This document shows positions 960-8,303 of a stretch of DNA of 29,376 nt, one piece after another (the first letter of the stretch is position 1; each line of letters starts with the position of its first letter). The stretch lies in IMG/VR virus record IMGVR_UViG_3300021182_000213, positions 1-29,376 of that record; one strand, written 5' to 3'. The position numbers and the translations under genes were made by a program. The notes below the pieces were generated by a model. It had not been told where the DNA came from and did no database searches. It saw only the letters and a list, made by a program, of their open reading frames with translations. Source of the stretch: a virus.

Positions 960-1764
960 GTATCCTGGCAGATGGGACTCCGCATCCGATTACGATGTGG
1001 GAATGGAAGCTGTACGACTAAACCTTGAAGATATTGTACTGGAGCCCCCGTCTTGCCCCACTCAGAAAAAGCCTGTCGCTCACACTCCTCCCAGCTTTGG
1101 CGAACGCGCTCCCGAGCCTGGTTTCCTTTTTCCCGGCCGGCAAGCCGATTATCACCAAAACCAGCTTCGCGATTTTAGCGCCAAGGTTGACTTGCAGATT
1201 GCGCAAGAAAACTATGCCGCGAAGATGGAGATTAACGCCCGTTCCGTTGACCATGAACTTACGGAACAGCCAAAGCGTTTAGCTCAAGAGACTGAAGTCC
1301 GCGACCTAACGCACAGACAAACCATAGAGCAAACTCAAGCCACCCACGATTTAAACGTTAATGTTCTCATTCCCGCCGCGAAAGATAAAACTCTGGATGT
1401 TCCTACATTAATGGTAGTCAGGGTAGAAGAAGAGCGTTCAAGAATTGCTTTGGAAGCCGAACGTCAGAAGGTCTCCATTGAAGTTGACAAAGTAAGGCAA
1501 CTTGAAGACAATCGCCTGTATGGCTACGAGCGTGAGGCCAGAATTGACATCCAAGCTGCTCTAGGAATGCATCTAAAGTCAGTTGAGACGATAGACTATG
1601 TAGGCTACAAGATAGAACGGCTTCGAGCTGAGAATGCCAACCCCGACCGCATAAAGGTTCTGGAGAGAATCCGTGACCAAATGGAGAAACGATTACTCGA
1701 AGCACCTGAACAAGAAGGTCTGGGAGGAATTGATCCGGCGCCCGAAGGCGAAGCAGGTAGTTGA
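913..1764 (+). CDS. Hypothetical charged coiled-coil protein
   Basis: This 283-residue protein starts at an ATG with GGAGG at 902-906, six bases upstream. The N-terminal 35 residues (ERLGRKLKNEYPGRW...) look like a small folded segment. A proline-rich stretch follows at about 42-70. From about 75 to 260 the sequence is rich in E, K, R, Q and A with heptad-like spacing, which suggests a long helical coiled coil. There are no signal peptide or membrane segments. It overlaps the upstream gene by 47 bases and the coupling ATPase by 92 bases, so it is almost certainly co-translated with them. I do not recognise the family. A structural or adaptor role beside the ATPase is plausible but unproven. 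Confidence 0.65.
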   Translation: MTHSDVERLGRKLKNEYPGRWDSASDYDVGMEAVRLNLEDIVLEPPSCPTQKKPVAHTPPSFGERAPEPGFLFPGRQADYHQNQLRDFSAKVDLQIAQENYAAKMEINARSVDHELTEQPKRLAQETEVRDLTHRQTIEQTQATHDLNVNVLIPAAKDKTLDVPTLMVVRVEEERSRIALEAERQKVSIEVDKVRQLEDNRLYGYEREARIDIQAALGMHLKSVETIDYVGYKIERLRAENANPDRIKVLERIRDQMEKRLLEAPEQEGLGGIDPAPEGEAGS

Positions 1765-3247
1765 GTCCTTAATCCAGCAAGCACAAAGCAATTATCCTCT
1801 GCGAAATCTCGGCTCTATTCCTGAAGGCTATCTTGAACTCTCCGAAGAATCCCGCGCCGCCCACATCCACATTCTCGGCACTACCCGCGAGGGCAAGTCC
1901 AAGTTCCTTGAAATGCTCCTCACTCAGGATATGGGAAGGTTCGGCGCCACCCTACTTGACCCCTCTGATAATGGCCAGACGGCCTACAATGTGCTGAAAT
2001 CGGCAATAGCGCGGGGATATGAGAAGGTCTGCCTGATTGACCCGCACGACGCCAAGTTTGCAGTCCCGTGTCTTAATCCTTTGCGCTGGCGCGGCGCTCC
2101 GGCCACCGACTCCGTTGTCCAGAACATCATGGAGTCTATCCGGCTGCTTTGGGGCCAGAGCAGCTTCTCCGATACCCCCAGAATTGAAATCTATTTGGCC
2201 GCTGTTCTATCTGCCCTTTACGCAGCGAAGGCTACCATACCAGATGCCGACTGTTTTTTGGTTAAGGAAAGTCGTTATAATCAATATAGGCGAGCAAAGA
2301 TTTTGGACCATCTTCCGCCTTATGATAATTCCAGGCAAGTACTTGAGGAAGTGTTCAACGCTAAAGGCCAGCAGCTTTTCTTGGGAGAGTTTAAGCCCTC
2401 TATCCGTCGTCTAAAGCCATTCTTCGATTACCTGCCTCGGCTCATCTACGGATCAACTGAAACTCCGCTGGATTTCCGCCAGCTCATCAGCGACAAGTGG
2501 ATAATACTGGTAAACCTCGATGACACGCGTCTTTGGGGTACGGCTCACCAAAGGGTGCTAGGCACGCTTATCATTAACGAGATAATCTCCGCCGTTTCTG
2601 ACCTTACCGAGCACGGCTGGAAAGGCCGGCACTACCTTTACATTGATGAGGCTGGCCAGTTTGCCACGCGCGGCCTGTCCAAGATAATGGCCTACAAAGG
2701 CAAGAGCGGGCTTTGGGCAACAGTCTCTCACCAGTATTACAGCCAGTTTGAGGATAAGGTGGTATTGGACGCAATCGAGAATTTGTGTAAAATAAAGGTA
2801 ATGTTCTACACCCCGAACTCTCAGGACAGGCAGCGGATGATTCGGGATATGTATACGGGCGACCTCAAGCTAACGGCCGGCGACGCCCACGCCACCTTAA
2901 AGAAGCAGCACGCCGTTATCAAAATCGGCAAAGAGCCGCCCCAAACCGTCGCTATCCGCGACATCAATACCCCTGACATCTCGGCCGATGTCTTGGGCAG
3001 GTGGAAAGAAGAGAAGATTTATAAAGCTAATCCCTGGTATCGCACCGCCGAGACGATACAGGAAGAAATCCATAACAGATTTGCCGTACCAACTTCGCAG
3101 GCGCGAGCGGCTAGACCCGCTCCAACTGCCCAGCCAACAAATAACTCCCAAGGACCTCCTGGAGAGCAGAGTGCAGAGCCTAGCCCGCCAAAGGATACTT
3201 CAAAGCCTAAGAGAAAATCGGTATTTGACGATATCGCAGGTGGCTGA
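1673..3247 (+). CDS. Type IV coupling protein-like ATPase (VirD4/TraG/TraD family)
   Basis: Proteins of this family are hexameric ATPases that bring DNA to a type IV secretion channel. The 524-residue product has Walker A GTTREGKS at residues 69-76, and a Walker B strand ending IDEAGQ at about 324-329, followed by a typical TraG-D C-terminal ATPase region. It ends in a Pro/Ser/Lys-rich tail. The start is a GTG at 1673, chosen because GGAGAG lies at 1662-1667 with about six bases of spacing. There are no N-terminal transmembrane helices, unlike classical VirD4, and the 4-TM protein at the operon start may compensate. It overlaps its upstream and downstream genes. In a phage-like contig it points to a plasmid or conjugative ancestry of the left end. 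Related DUF87/FtsK-like translocases are the alternative. Confidence 0.85.
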   Translation: MTKWRNDYSKHLNKKVWEELIRRPKAKQVVESLIQQAQSNYPLRNLGSIPEGYLELSEESRAAHIHILGTTREGKSKFLEMLLTQDMGRFGATLLDPSDNGQTAYNVLKSAIARGYEKVCLIDPHDAKFAVPCLNPLRWRGAPATDSVVQNIMESIRLLWGQSSFSDTPRIEIYLAAVLSALYAAKATIPDADCFLVKESRYNQYRRAKILDHLPPYDNSRQVLEEVFNAKGQQLFLGEFKPSIRRLKPFFDYLPRLIYGSTETPLDFRQLISDKWIILVNLDDTRLWGTAHQRVLGTLIINEIISAVSDLTEHGWKGRHYLYIDEAGQFATRGLSKIMAYKGKSGLWATVSHQYYSQFEDKVVLDAIENLCKIKVMFYTPNSQDRQRMIRDMYTGDLKLTAGDAHATLKKQHAVIKIGKEPPQTVAIRDINTPDISADVLGRWKEEKIYKANPWYRTAETIQEEIHNRFAVPTSQARAARPAPTAQPTNNSQGPPGEQSAEPSPPKDTSKPKRKSVFDDIAGG

Positions 3248-3953
3248 GCTGTTTTACTCTGTCCGCAAGGACGGTTCCGCCCCAAAGCCGTTTCCACGGC
3301 AACCGCGCAAAGGCCAGTATTATGAGCTTGTGCCCGGTTATGATTCCGCCCGGCAGCGGGTTTTGGCTATGCAGGACGGCGGGGAAGTCAAGCTTGTTCC
3401 ATGTAAAACAAACTCCGGCAAAACCCTGACCAACATCGACAAGCTGATAATGTTTCCGAAAGACCGGCCGCCCTCCACTATGGGGTGGCAGCACGAGATT
3501 GACCGCGGCGACCTATATGTCGCCCTCCACAAGACCGGCAAACTGACCAGCTACCGCTGGAATTGGCATATTGACGAATACCGGGGCTTTGCCAAAGACC
3601 ACAGACTTAATCCGGATGGCCGCTTTGAGCTGGAAGGTAGCGACAAGGTGTTTTTCCTGGAAGTAGACAGAGGCACAGAGTTTTGGACGGACGAGCTGGA
3701 TACCAAGATTGAGAAGTATGCCGGCCTCCAGGATTCCATGCCCCAAAACCAGTTTGTGGTGCTGTTCACTTTGCAGGCAAAGCCAGGGATGGATATTCGG
3801 GAGCGCGCGGAGAAGTTCCGCGATAAATTCCACCAGCTCGGCCGTGGCCACAGTTTCGTCATCACCCCCCACGTCCTGTTCCTAAAAGACCCCCTCGCAC
3901 TGGCGCTGGACTTTTACAAGTCCGATGAGCCGTGCTCTCTGCTGTCGCTCTAA
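3171..3953 (+). CDS. Replication-relaxation (Replic_Relax) family protein
   Basis: Replic_Relax proteins are found on plasmids and mobile elements and are linked to plasmid replication initiation or relaxation. The 260-residue product has an N-terminal winged-helix-like segment (RQRILQSLRENRYLTISQVA, about residues 6-25). It also carries the family signature FFLEVDRGTEFW near residues 160-171, followed by a helical region. The frame is open back to 2988, but I chose the GTG at 3171, because GGAG at 3161-3164 is spaced six bases away and the protein then begins right at the winged helix. The 77-base overlap with the ATPase gene shows tight coupling. Coupling ATPase plus Replic_Relax is a familiar pair on plasmid-like elements. 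Confidence 0.8.
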   Translation: MQSLARQRILQSLRENRYLTISQVAELFYSVRKDGSAPKPFPRQPRKGQYYELVPGYDSARQRVLAMQDGGEVKLVPCKTNSGKTLTNIDKLIMFPKDRPPSTMGWQHEIDRGDLYVALHKTGKLTSYRWNWHIDEYRGFAKDHRLNPDGRFELEGSDKVFFLEVDRGTEFWTDELDTKIEKYAGLQDSMPQNQFVVLFTLQAKPGMDIRERAEKFRDKFHQLGRGHSFVITPHVLFLKDPLALALDFYKSDEPCSLLSL

Positions 3954-4030
3954 ACGCTCGCGCCAAACGCTCGCTACAAATCGCAATTCATACGGTTTGA
4001 AGTGGTTGCTGTCTAACGACTTGGCTTGCT

Positions 4031-4050
4031 CTTGGCTTAAAAAAGCCAAG
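4031..4050. repeat. Perfect 8-bp hairpin
   Basis: CTTGGCTT and AAGCCAAG face each other across AAAA, giving an 8-bp stem with a four-base loop. No T-run follows on either strand, so it is not a standard intrinsic terminator. It could still end transcription of the upstream operon weakly or be part of a replication or transfer site. Confidence 0.6.
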
Positions 4051-4076
4051 CTTGCTATTCCGTCTGCCTGCTCTCC

Positions 4077-4157
4077 GAGCAAGGCCACTTTCCCCAGCCT
4101 TACGGTTTCGCTAACCGCTTCAGTCATTTACATTCCCCGGTGAAAGTGGCCTTGCTC
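4077..4157. repeat. 15-bp perfect inverted repeat with 51-base spacer
   Basis: GAGCAAGGCCACTTT at 4077-4091 is repeated exactly as its reverse complement at 4143-4157. The spacer contains no open frame of note. A chance 15-bp match at this distance is unlikely. A cruciform, nick region or small element end is possible. Confidence 0.7.
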
Positions 4158-4494
4158 ACGCTCGGCATCCGGAATCTGGCCTCCGGCCCCTGCCTCCGGC
4201 GTCTGGCCGCTGCCGCTGGCCAGCTCCCAAAGACCGGCCTGGCGGCACGGCTACCCCCACTGAAATGCACTGTGCTTCGCTTCTTTGTCGCCTGACCGGC
4301 TCTTTGACATCCTGGCTCGCTCCGCTCGCCTTAATACCCTCTCGCTTTGTGTCTCCTGTCTTGTGTTCACTTTTTTGCACTAATCCCGCCTGTTGTGGGC
4401 GGCTTCGCAGATCCGATACTTCGTGGCAGTCGCTTGAGGTAAATGTCATCGGCAGGAAGTGAAGAAGCCGATTCAATAGGTTGTTTACAATGGG

Positions 4495-4523
4495 TTGTCA
4501 ATCAAGAGTGAGAGATTTATAAA
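4495..4523 (+). promoter_or_regulatory. Sigma-70-like promoter for the SymE-like cassette
   Basis: TTGTCA (4495-4500) and TATAAA (4518-4523) are separated by exactly 17 bases. Each hexamer matches the consensus at five of six positions. Transcription would start near 4530 and read through a roughly 180-base structured leader into the genes at 4708 and 4865. Confidence 0.55.
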
Positions 4524-4570
4524 TTAAGGATTGAGCAGTCCCAGCGAGACAACCGTAAAGAGGGAGGCAT

Positions 4571-4699
4571 ACAGTTTTAGAGATAGGACTGTTGCGGCTA
4601 CCGCCGTCAACGTAGGCAAAGGTTTGAGATTTGCCAAGTAGTGGGCTCCCTCGGGCGCGTTTGACCTGGCTTTCCTTGCAGGAAAGCAGGTAGGAAAGG
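4571..4699 (+). repeat. Left copy of a diverged inverted duplication (structured leader)
   Basis: This stretch matches, in inverted orientation, the sequence at 5115-5268. The best core is 25 bases at 4633-4657 (begins GCCAAGTAGTGGG), which matches 23 of 25 bases of the reverse complement of 5173-5197. Similarity extends on both sides with gaps. Read in the frame used by the right copy, it shows QVVGSLGRV and then a stop, with other stops upstream, so this copy cannot encode the full protein. It also contains a strong hairpin at 4664-4691 just upstream of the ribosome site at 4698-4701. Confidence 0.55.
4664..4691 (+). promoter_or_regulatory. Strong hairpin directly upstream of the 4708 ribosome site
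   Basis: ACCTGGCTTTCC (4664-4675) pairs with GGAAAGCAGGT (4681-4691) apart from one bulged G, leaving loop TTGCA. The Shine-Dalgarno GGAG begins only seven bases after the stem. This could control translation or transcript stability of the small cassette. The same stem core (CTTTCC/GGAAA) is present in the inverted copy near 5125-5150. Confidence 0.5.
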
Positions 4700-4707
4700 A
4701 GCAGGGG

Positions 4708-4875
4708 TTGAGGTTGACGGTTGTGCGGTGTGTTTTTGTTTTGTTGTTAGGTTTAGTGTTTGGTTTTGTTGTTCAGAGTGTTGCGGGTTTAGTTTTAGCT
4801 GTGGATAGTTTCAGTAGAAGTAGCGGAAGTGCCAGTATTTCGGTAGATGGACAGGGGGTGAGTTATGCGAGATAA
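4708..4875 (+). CDS. Small hydrophobic peptide (55 aa) overlapping the SymE-like gene
   Basis: A TTG start at 4708 is preceded by AAAGGAG (GGAG at 4698-4701) with six bases of spacing. The peptide starts with basic residues and has a hydrophobic segment (VCVFVLLLG-like, about residues 5-32). It then turns polar with SFSRSSGSASISVDGQG. It could be a signal peptide plus a short secreted part, or a single-TM peptide. Its stop overlaps the ATG of the next gene (4865) by 11 bases, implying coupled translation. Codons are strongly T- and G-biased, unlike the neighbours to the left. In-frame GTG at 4723 is an alternative start. I do not recognise a family. Confidence 0.45.
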   Translation: MRLTVVRCVFVLLLGLVFGFVVQSVAGLVLAVDSFSRSSGSASISVDGQGVSYAR

Positions 4876-5050
4876 TTTAGGTAAGAGATTGACTGTTAGT
4901 AGCGTTTGGAATAATAGTGCTTTTAAGAGTGTTCCGATGATTAGGCTACGAGGTGTCTGGTTAGAGGCATTCGGTTTCCACGTTGGAGATATTTTTGAGC
5001 TGATATTCAGTTTCGAAGATGGTTGCTTAATTATTAAAAAGGTTCAGTAA
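4865..5050 (+). CDS. SymE/AbrB-like small protein (toxin-antitoxin-type fold)
   Basis: This is a 61-residue protein. The C-terminal half, IRLRGVWLEAFGFHVGD followed by FELIFSFEDGCLIIKK, matches the pattern of SymE-type toxins and related swapped-hairpin AbrB-like proteins (P.IRL.G.WL..AGF..GD...V....G.L.I). SymE in Escherichia coli is an SOS-induced RNA-targeting toxin controlled by an antisense RNA. Whether this copy is toxic cannot be told from sequence. The start overlaps the preceding 55-aa gene. Like that gene it is G/T-rich. It is flanked by inverted copies of a structured sequence, which would suit acquisition as a small mobile cassette. A plain AbrB-like DNA binder is the main alternative. 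Confidence 0.65.
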   Translation: MRDNLGKRLTVSSVWNNSAFKSVPMIRLRGVWLEAFGFHVGDIFELIFSFEDGCLIIKKVQ

Positions 5051-5054
5051 AGGC

Positions 5055-5351
5055 CTATGCACAATTTACCAAGAGATTACATACCGCAGCGAACCGTCCG
5101 GCTCGTCCCCTACTCTTCCCAGCCAGCTTTTCCAGAGGCAGGAAAGCCCACCCTGCCTGTACACCCACCACACGCCCGAGGGAACCCGCTACTTGGCGAC
5201 AGAAATCTTCAAGAGCCTTATAATTACGGTAGCGGCGGGTAGTCCACACAGCTCGACTATCTAAAAACATCAGGCATAGTATAGCCTCAATATCCGGTTT
5301 ACTGTTGTTGCTTTGGGGTACACCTCGGAAACGGGGGCGTATTGAAAACAC
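5055..5351 (-). CDS. Hypothetical 98-aa protein within the right inverted copy
   Basis: The minus-strand frame starts at a GTG at 5351, with an in-frame ATG further in. The middle section (RRYRNYKALEDFCRQVAGSL) looks protein-like, with charged helical character. The decayed left copy at 4571-4699 retains the equivalent of QV-GSLGRV before a stop. No Shine-Dalgarno is evident and no family is recognised. The alternative is that both copies are a structured RNA and this frame is accidental. It converges on the SymE-like gene, with only four bases between their ends. Confidence 0.35.
   Translation of the reverse strand: MFSIRPRFRGVPQSNNSKPDIEAILCLMFLDSRAVWTTRRYRNYKALEDFCRQVAGSLGRVVGVQAGWAFLPLEKLAGKSRGRAGRFAAVCNLLVNCA
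5115..5268 (-). repeat. Right copy of the diverged inverted duplication
   Basis: On the minus strand this copy carries the core GCCAAGTAGCGGGTTCCC..., at 5173-5197, with 23 of 25 bases shared with 4633-4657. It also carries a related CTTTCC/GGAAA hairpin. It is longer than the left copy by a gap of roughly 14 bases after the core. The two copies point toward each other with the small cassette between them. Confidence 0.55.
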
Positions 5352-5483
5352 GTTGATACGGCCATTGCCGGGTAGTGGTCAAAGGTGTGACGTGTGGCGG
5401 GGACTTCCTCCGGCCTTTGGAGATGTCCACTTCGTTGTGTTTACTGCCCGTCGCTGACTAGTCTAATCATTAACAAGCTAAAA

Positions 5484-6086
5484 ATGCAATTCTTCAACGA
5501 TTATTGGAGTGGTTTGCCAATTGGTATTCTGATTGGCTGTTTGGTTATGCACAGTTTTGAGTTAAAGAAAAGCCGCGCTCACGAGGAGGCGGCTAAAGTT
5601 GGCACGTGCTGTCAGTTTGGTGATTTCGGCGACGGCCACAAGTGTGCTAAAGAGCCAGCATTACTTCCTTCGTCAGACTCTCCGGATCTTCGCACGCGGC
5701 TGGAAGTGGCGGGGCTTTCACCCACAGATGCCGCGATATACGAAGCAGTGTTTCAGCACACGACTCGGCTTTGTTCCTGTCAGGCAGGTAGACAATGCCT
5801 TTGGCTAGAGTACAAAGAAGCGAAAGCTGCTCTTCCGCTATACTCCACCCATACGCCGCCACAGCCGGCAGCCCGTACATCGCAAACTTCATCACGCAGA
5901 ACGGCGACTCAACCAGGTAAACCCGTTTCAACGGCACCGGGCCGAACGTCCCCGCCACCAGTTCCGCGGCCCCAAATAGGAAGCGCGACTTCGGCAGGTT
6001 TTTCGGAAACAGATATTTGGGATTGTCCGGGTTGCCCGAGGTGTCCCTACCAAGATAGCCGTACAGAACGCCAGCAGAATCCTTAA
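5484..6086 (+). CDS. Doubtful small membrane protein overlapping the primase gene antisense
   Basis: An ATG at 5484 begins a frame with one hydrophobic segment (PIGILIGCLVMHS, about residues 11-25), followed by a charged stretch. After about residue 55 the frame runs antisense through the primase-like gene and its composition (Thr/Pro/Arg-rich) looks accidental. There is no clear ribosome site; only AAGCTAAAA precedes the start. I list it because positions 5352-5646 otherwise hold nothing recognisable. A real product, if any, is probably limited to the N-terminal part. Confidence 0.2.
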   Translation: MQFFNDYWSGLPIGILIGCLVMHSFELKKSRAHEEAAKVGTCCQFGDFGDGHKCAKEPALLPSSDSPDLRTRLEVAGLSPTDAAIYEAVFQHTTRLCSCQAGRQCLWLEYKEAKAALPLYSTHTPPQPAARTSQTSSRRTATQPGKPVSTAPGRTSPPPVPRPQIGSATSAGFSETDIWDCPGCPRCPYQDSRTERQQNP

Positions 6087-6579
6087 CCGGCAACATCACC
6101 CGGCCGCTGTACGCCGACTTCCGCGCCGGGTTGTTGTAGCAGAATACGCCGTAGCGTTCGCGAATGCCGGCGTCCGGTATCCGCTCCTCCAGCCATGGGC
6201 AGGCGACAGCGAGCTTGCGCCACGTGTCTTTGGCAAGCGGCTGTAAAGCACCGTCAGAAGCGACCGGAGCCCGTGTGGGCTCTGTTTTCGTGTCGGGTGG
6301 TGGTACGGAGCCCAGAAACTCTACGGCTTCCTTAAAGCCGATATTCTTGACGAGCTTGGCCAGGTCGATGGCGCCGCGGCCCTTGGCATCGCAGCTAAAG
6401 CAGTGGAAGCGGCCGTCATCGTTGTAGGCGAAGCAGTTGTTGTTGGATTTGGACTGGTGGATGGGGCAATAGCCCTGCCAGTCGGCTTTGCGGCGCTTGA
6501 AGCGCGTCATGTCCAGCCCGAGCGCGGCGGCGAGGGCTGGGAACGGAAGCGAGCGGACTTGCTCGTATTGGTCTGACAC
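5647..6579 (-). CDS. CHC2 zinc-finger/TOPRIM DNA primase-like protein
   Basis: The product is 310 residues. A CHC2 zinc-binding motif is visible as C38-P-I-H41 ... C60-F-S-C63, the DNA-binding element of DnaG-type primases. A TOPRIM-like C-terminal part starts near residue 220, with VYLVES (Glu 224) and LPDRN (267-269), where family members usually have a DxD pair, so the second acidic motif is altered. It is shorter than cellular DnaG (about 600 residues) and lacks a helicase-interaction domain. I chose the GTG at 6579, since AAGGAGG lies six bases upstream; the frame is open further but has no better signal. It probably synthesises primers for phage replication, or is a regulator built on the same domains. 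Confidence 0.8.
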   Translation of the reverse strand: MSDQYEQVRSLPFPALAAALGLDMTRFKRRKADWQGYCPIHQSKSNNNCFAYNDDGRFHCFSCDAKGRGAIDLAKLVKNIGFKEAVEFLGSVPPPDTKTEPTRAPVASDGALQPLAKDTWRKLAVACPWLEERIPDAGIRERYGVFCYNNPARKSAYSGRVMLPVKDSAGVLYGYLGRDTSGNPDNPKYLFPKNLPKSRFLFGAAELVAGTFGPVPLKRVYLVESPFCVMKFAMYGLPAVAAYGWSIAEEQLSLLCTLAKGIVYLPDRNKAESCAETLLRISRHLWVKAPPLPAACEDPESLTKEVMLAL

Positions 6580-6640
6580 CGATTTCCTCCTTATACACTC
6601 ACCCCTTGCGTTTGGTAAGAGGACAGGGTACAAAGGGCTT

Positions 6641-7866: not shown

Positions 7867-8067
7867 TTAGTCTGGGTTCAGAACCACTCTATTGATGTTG
7901 AAAATCATCTCCGAGTGTCCGTCTTCAAAATAGACTGTCCAATACCATCTGTCACCTTCGCCTTGAGCTGCATGAGCTTCAATTTTTGTGACGCCGTTTT
8001 TACCTACTTCGCGCACTGTTTTGTATTGGTCATCTTGCCAGTCGTAAACAATATATTGTATTGTCAT
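7867..8067 (-). CDS. Small hypothetical protein (66 aa)
   Basis: The product is acidic and aromatic (MTIQYIVYDWQDDQYKTV, later RWYWTVYFEDGHSEMIFNIN) and likely forms a single beta-sheet domain. There is no signal peptide, membrane helix or obvious ribosome site. Its strand and size match the surrounding minus-strand block of early-type phage genes. The family is unknown. Confidence 0.55.
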   Translation of the reverse strand: MTIQYIVYDWQDDQYKTVREVGKNGVTKIEAHAAQGEGDRWYWTVYFEDGHSEMIFNINRVVLNPD

Positions 8068-8093
8068 GTCGTAGGCAGTAGGATGCCAGCCGT

Positions 8094-8303
8094 TTAATTC
8101 TTATCGTAGTATTCGTCAGCAAGCTTTCTTAAGTTAATGCCCAATCGTACGGCCCACGCCTCCATAGTTTTCGCTTGGGTGTCCATCTCCCGAAAGAACA
8201 AGGCGTCATTCGCCAGTCGGGCAACTTCTCTAAACCTACAAACCATATCGTATGCGCACGCCTTCTCAATATTTACCGCCTGACCGATTTTGGTGAAGTT
8301 CAT
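8094..8303 (-). CDS. Small hypothetical helical protein (69 aa)
   Basis: The product is predicted to be mostly helical (KACAYDMVCRFREVARLAND and then AWAVRLGINLRKLADEYY). The ATG at 8303 lacks a Shine-Dalgarno. Its leader TAACAAACTAAC resembles the leaders of the genes starting at 8783 and, partly, 7710. The family is unknown. Confidence 0.55.
   Translation of the reverse strand: MNFTKIGQAVNIEKACAYDMVCRFREVARLANDALFFREMDTQAKTMEAWAVRLGINLRKLADEYYDKN

Follow-up and report, generated by a model that had tools for sequence, protein, structure and literature searches.

The two noncoding segments that flank a small SymE-like cassette in this virus, A and B, form one long imperfect inverted repeat whose arms coevolve; they are not copies of one RNA or gene. 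We infer that this repeat brackets a slot for accessory genes and that its arms are held alike at the DNA level mainly by template switching, a reading to which we give about an even chance of being right. The window, i.e. the whole stretch of DNA that was analysed, is the IMG/VR virus record IMGVR_UViG_3300021182_000213 (29,376 bases), whose genes include a terminase, an SU10-type portal and adaptor and a capsid protein; 14 kb of it is repeated identically in contig L004. Features of the locus are listed in Table 1.

Table 1. Features of the arm locus and its neighbours (window coordinates)
Feature	Position	Strand	Basis or remark
Replic_Relax (replication-relaxation) gene, left neighbour of the locus	2988..3953	+	PF13814, 39.8 bits
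Conserved hairpins downstream of Replic_Relax: H0 (4031-4050), H1 (4055-4176)	4022..4190	+	model R2
Arm A, noncoding, overlaps the smORF1 start	about 4540..4733	+	local alignment with the reverse complement of arm B
Core of arm A	4633..4660	+	pairs with 5170-5197
Cargo-proximal hairpin of A, GGCTTTCC-TTGCA-GGAAAGC	4668..4687	+	in five phages, three strands change in concert
smORF1, 55-aa membrane-type small protein	4708..4875	+	kept in the window, L006, L018/L007, L036 and L052
SymE domain gene, start overlaps the smORF1 stop	4865..5050	+	PF08845, 34.9 bits (cut-off 29)
Arm B, noncoding	about 5079..5317	-	local alignment with arm A
B' partner strand and conserved motif, CCACCCTG[A]CCTnnnCACCCA	5138..5167	+	one base short in the window
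Core of arm B	5170..5197	-	pairs with 4633-4660
DnaG-like primase gene, right neighbour of the locus	5647..6633	-	PF01807 and PHROG DNA primase

The original prediction, that inverted and diverged duplicates flank the cassette, was confirmed; the likeness is understated there and extends beyond the limits given. Aligned in inverted orientation, the arms share 147 identities in 193 columns (∼76%), with 46 mismatches and several gaps. Local alignment of positions 4480-4780 with the reverse complement of 5060-5340 scored 99, whereas 1000 shuffles averaged 22.5 and never exceeded 41; among 400 control pairs of window segments with matching size and spacing, the best reached 36. The near-identical core noticed before is complementary at 25 of 28 positions, and is detected by blastn of the window against itself (E 7e-5). 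When the core was removed, its upstream flank was matched by 1 of 2000 shuffles and its downstream flank by none of 2000 under strict scoring, and under looser scoring neither flank was matched in 2000 shuffles. Both flanks are significant on their own, thus the shared similarity exceeds the core, as the claim of a wider gapped similarity held. The hairpin stem described as common to both duplicates was found as well, in B at 5123-5148. In a simple assembly chimera the arms would be near-identical; this origin was ruled out due to the ∼76% identity and the many indels. Altogether, the noncoding structured stretch covers roughly 750 nt before the cargo and 400 nt after it.

Relatives were collected by terminase, primase or upstream motif, and the same locus was found beside the DnaG-like primase gene in five further phage contigs (L006, L018, L036, L037 and L052; L018 has the same sequence as L007 here). 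The order is Replic_Relax, a noncoding stretch with H0 and H1, A, cargo, B and, on the opposite strand, primase. All of these parts are present in L006, L018, L036 and L052, and L037, whose contig ends before the Replic_Relax side, covers the part from A to primase. The genes between the arms differ. The cargo consists of smORF1 and SymE in the window, L006 and L036, the only phages of the six with SymE; of smORF1 and a short SymE remnant in L018; of smORF1 and an unrelated 57-aa ORF in L052; and of an 82-aa membrane ORF in L037. Its orientation is the same in all six phages, with no flip. smORF1 is vertically shared in five of them, and has no family in Pfam, PHROG or NCBIfam. At about 6396-6437 of L018 the start context of SymE is kept and its frame is lost (remnant MRGLMDSFLTAII), with smORF1 intact upstream.

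SymE (PF08845) is the protein partner in the SymE/SymR type I toxin-antitoxin system. The window cargo protein has the SymE domain and the L006 and L036 proteins are its relatives, but the NCBIfam equivalog model NF010128 is about twice as long and gives it 26 bits, far below the cut-off of 132. Moreover, SymE here follows a membrane smORF with an overlapping start, and no SymR RNA, the antisense antitoxin that overlaps the 5' region of symE, was identified. A SymE protein search of the viral contigs gave no match, and the alignment of the SymE pair matched among them only the contig of L006.

We compared the A of each phage with the B of each phage in a 6 x 6 matrix (36 pairs). Own A against own inverted B gave z = 21.6, 2.0, 6.7, 7.5, 6.2 and 12.5 in the six phages, whereas foreign pairs had a mean z of 0.2 and a maximum of 3.8; between several phages A resembles A, and B resembles B. 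Of the 720 possible pairings of arms, none but the true one reaches the observed sum; without the window it is 1 of 120. In each of the six phages, the own A/B score exceeded those of all 400 pairs of the same geometry from the same contig, and in every matrix row the duplex energy of the own arms is conspicuous. With the cargo-proximal hairpin left out the values were 16.9 for the window, 12.0 for L006, 7.1 for L052, 3.2 for L036 and 0.1 for L018, and 1 of 120 pairings reached the observed sum. The sample is six phages, some as fragments only, and among these the arms of L036 are weakly alike and those of L006 contain a tract matching at 21 of 21 bases. The arms are not alignable between phages, hence column covariation was countable for H0/H1 only.

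At the cargo edge of A, three segments change together. The left arm of the cargo-proximal hairpin is also complementary to B' at 5140-5148, and B' carries at 5138-5147 a direct repeat of its right arm and of some loop bases, so that A-left can pair either with A-right or with B' in mutually exclusive helices, with coordinated changes in five phages. In each of these five, A-left is exactly complementary to its own B' over 9-11 nt, and to a foreign B' over 3-6 nt except between the window and L036, which share arms. Palindromic hairpins are found at both cargo edges. Inside this otherwise variable pairing, the B' motif CCACCCTGACCTnnnCACCCA is near-invariant in four phages: L006, L036 and L052 have it exactly, and the window copy is one base short. 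In L018 it is diverged. The motif faces TGACC of A and has a variable helix on either side. Scans with the motif gave only chance matches beyond L006, L036 and L052.

The original prediction had offered a structured RNA, a duplicated gene with one decayed copy, or a mobile unit with these segments at its ends. Under the first, A and B would be diverged genes that encode the same small RNA and face one another. This would account for the shared hairpin and the collinear gapped similarity inside the window, but because the A of one phage does not resemble the B of another, A and B are not two copies of one functional RNA, and we consider such a gene pair very improbable. The mismatches have no RNA-strand signature, and the covariance model built from both copies recovers both, and beyond them only weak fragments in L036 and L052 (E 0.07-0.24), hence no convincing copy elsewhere. 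The earlier failure to match a known RNA family was upheld: in Rfam 15 no family reached the gathering score in the window, permissive thresholds gave only chance matches at the locus, and the sole match in the related loci was a tRNA elsewhere in them. Covariation within B was suspected at first and then dropped, as the RNAalifold consensus of the B alignment was poor (energy -5.3, positive covariation term) and B folds were no better than those of shuffles. The decayed protein gene is hardly credible at all. It could draw on an uninterrupted 98-aa frame on the minus strand of B, but copy A is stopped in all frames and no homologue of this ORF was found in six frames of eleven related loci. 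In the wider B region 5259-5425, which has 70% identity in L007/L018, the gaps are of 3, 2, 1, 1, 4, 1, 1, 1 and 1 bases and break the frame, and mismatches per codon phase are 19/18/20, i.e. there is no phase bias. Because the gaps are not multiples of three, the phases are equal and the ORF has no homologue, B evolves as noncoding DNA, and the 98-aa frame is not a gene. The third suggestion, terminal inverted repeats of a small cassette whose cargo is moved or exchanged as a unit via the arms, is improbable to a lesser degree. The constant place with varying cargo among phages and the palindromic hairpins at both cargo edges speak for it, and a repeat that encloses interchangeable cargo is partly in keeping with the earlier suggestion. 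Against it, the repeat is always found at one locus beside the same genes, no recombinase or transposase is enclosed, smORF1 is inherited vertically, and the arm sequences differ in each phage, which leaves no common recombinase site. No copies at unrelated sites were found in the collections searched, only the primase-side locus; a strict pattern of the 21-base core had no match in the viral contigs, and blastn of the element had none in phage and plasmid collections.

The main rival to template switching is functional pairing, in which A and B' would form a panhandle around the cargo in the plus-strand transcript, or a DNA cruciform, alternating with the local A hairpin; the structure would control cargo expression or replication of the region, and selection would keep the arms complementary. 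We regard it as possible but rather unlikely. In its favour are the three segments A-left, A-right and B', which change in concert in five phages, the near-invariant B' motif facing TGACC and the own duplex energies that stand out in each matrix row, and in the best predicted plus-strand folds of the window, L018 and L006 A is paired with B' around the genes. These fold energies owe part of their strength to the G+T-rich genes, however, B folds at the level of shuffles, and B' contains a direct repeat of loop bases from the A hairpin, a repeat for which pairing has no need. A helix selected at the RNA level should admit G-U pairs on the transcribed strand. Among the A/B mismatches, 24 are G-U-compatible on the plus strand and 21 on the minus strand, with 60 transversions; this is no excess on either strand and therefore no RNA signature. 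With similar reserve, the arms may be seen as a paired structure, either an RNA switch or an extruded DNA cruciform, with exchangeable cargo in the loop, a hairpin/panhandle switch and CCACCCTGACCTnnnCACCCA as internal-loop motif, which would be an undescribed phage device for control or cargo exchange.

We favour homogenisation of the arms at the DNA level, because the wobble mismatches have no strand bias and the H0/H1 stems are almost free of G-U. In this mechanism, the hairpin-rich intergenic region from Replic_Relax to primase would provide a slot for small accessory genes, with SymE and other small cargo genes as passengers that come and go between the arms, and during replication one arm would occasionally serve as template for the other through template switching at hairpins. 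The likeness of the arms could be held in this way with or without added selection for pairing, and the conserved hairpin element next to them may be origin-like. Template switching is well established as a process that homogenises the arms of inverted repeats (PMC8604942, PMC8794818). As in quasipalindrome correction (PMC8604942, PMC8794818, PMC7202029), the arms are closer within a genome than between relatives and share multi-base matching tracts, such as that of L006; different here are the distance of several hundred bases between the arms, with genes in between, the persistence across strongly diverged phages, and the lack of spacer flips. Several results oppose this reading. The near-invariant CCACCCTGACCTnnnCACCCA amid a variable paired region looks like selection and not like neutral copying, the L036 arms are only weakly alike, and the A/B pair was not found in L074, a distant relative that has H0/H1. 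Moreover, template switching can invert spacers, and flipped cargo was seen in none of the six phages. The locus is a clean natural case in which two distant inverted arms evolve together in six diverged phages with changing cargo. If homogenisation is true, the locus is a warning that inverted arms can covary with no RNA function behind it; if pairing is selected, this is an undescribed phage element for control or cargo exchange.

Upstream of the arms, H0 and H1 are real paired elements. Their model R2 scores 99-160 bits in six elements, the same six from which it was built (including L074 3555-3723 on the minus strand, in a genome of the Acidobacteriota), and 13 of 29 pairs are changed on both sides, compared with 3-7 when the pairing is slid. 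The stems are nearly free of G-U (8/308 and 10/315) on either strand, as expected for symmetry at the DNA level. Near H0/H1 lie a relaxase-type, a coupling-protein-like and a primase gene, which makes the region a plausible candidate for an origin, of replication or of transfer. TraD/VirD4-like ATPase and Replic_Relax genes are typical of conjugative elements, and here both (1673-3247 and 2988-3953) lie in a phage with an SU10-type portal and adaptor. The region thus resembles conjugative origin regions in its conserved hairpins directly 3' of the Replic_Relax and TraD/VirD4-like ATPase genes, but the genome around it is that of a phage, with genes for terminase, portal and capsid. With the large phage noncoding RNAs GOLLD and ROOL (PMC12286853) it shares a long intergenic structured stretch in phages; here, by contrast, no Rfam family matches and the conserved stems are almost without G-U on either strand. 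Titles and abstracts of the literature on large phage RNAs and on SymE contained no matching description.

The phage lineage with this locus is podovirus-like and little known. A primase profile found one broken remnant in the genome contigs (L049 8001-8436, in a Terriglobia MAG), which is probably a decayed integrated relative of the lineage, and the 396 genomes of the phylum of this MAG, the Acidobacteriota, contained one strong relative of the locus, L074, in which H0/H1, primase, Replic_Relax, coupling protein and synteny are kept and the cargo is another. Because of the remnant in the Terriglobia MAG and of L074 in the same phylum, Acidobacteriota are suggested as hosts.

Further small features lie around the arms. 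A zinc-ribbon-like small ORF (MYEHSxCCxAPVxAGGDxDTNYWVC..C) precedes A in L036 (about 8010-8120, minus strand) and L052 (about 4522-4630, plus strand), and in these two only, within an otherwise noncoding stretch. L052 alone has a gene between B and primase (5550-6086), which is HNH-endonuclease-like as judged from its sequence. An open frame at 5394-6086 (plus strand) of the window overlaps the 3' part of primase in antisense orientation; such a frame is present in the window, L006, L007, L036, L037 and L052, each time starting between B and the primase stop, and may be a real gene or follow from the codon pattern of the opposite strand. In L049, a tRNA end and an integrase-like fragment adjoin the broken primase.
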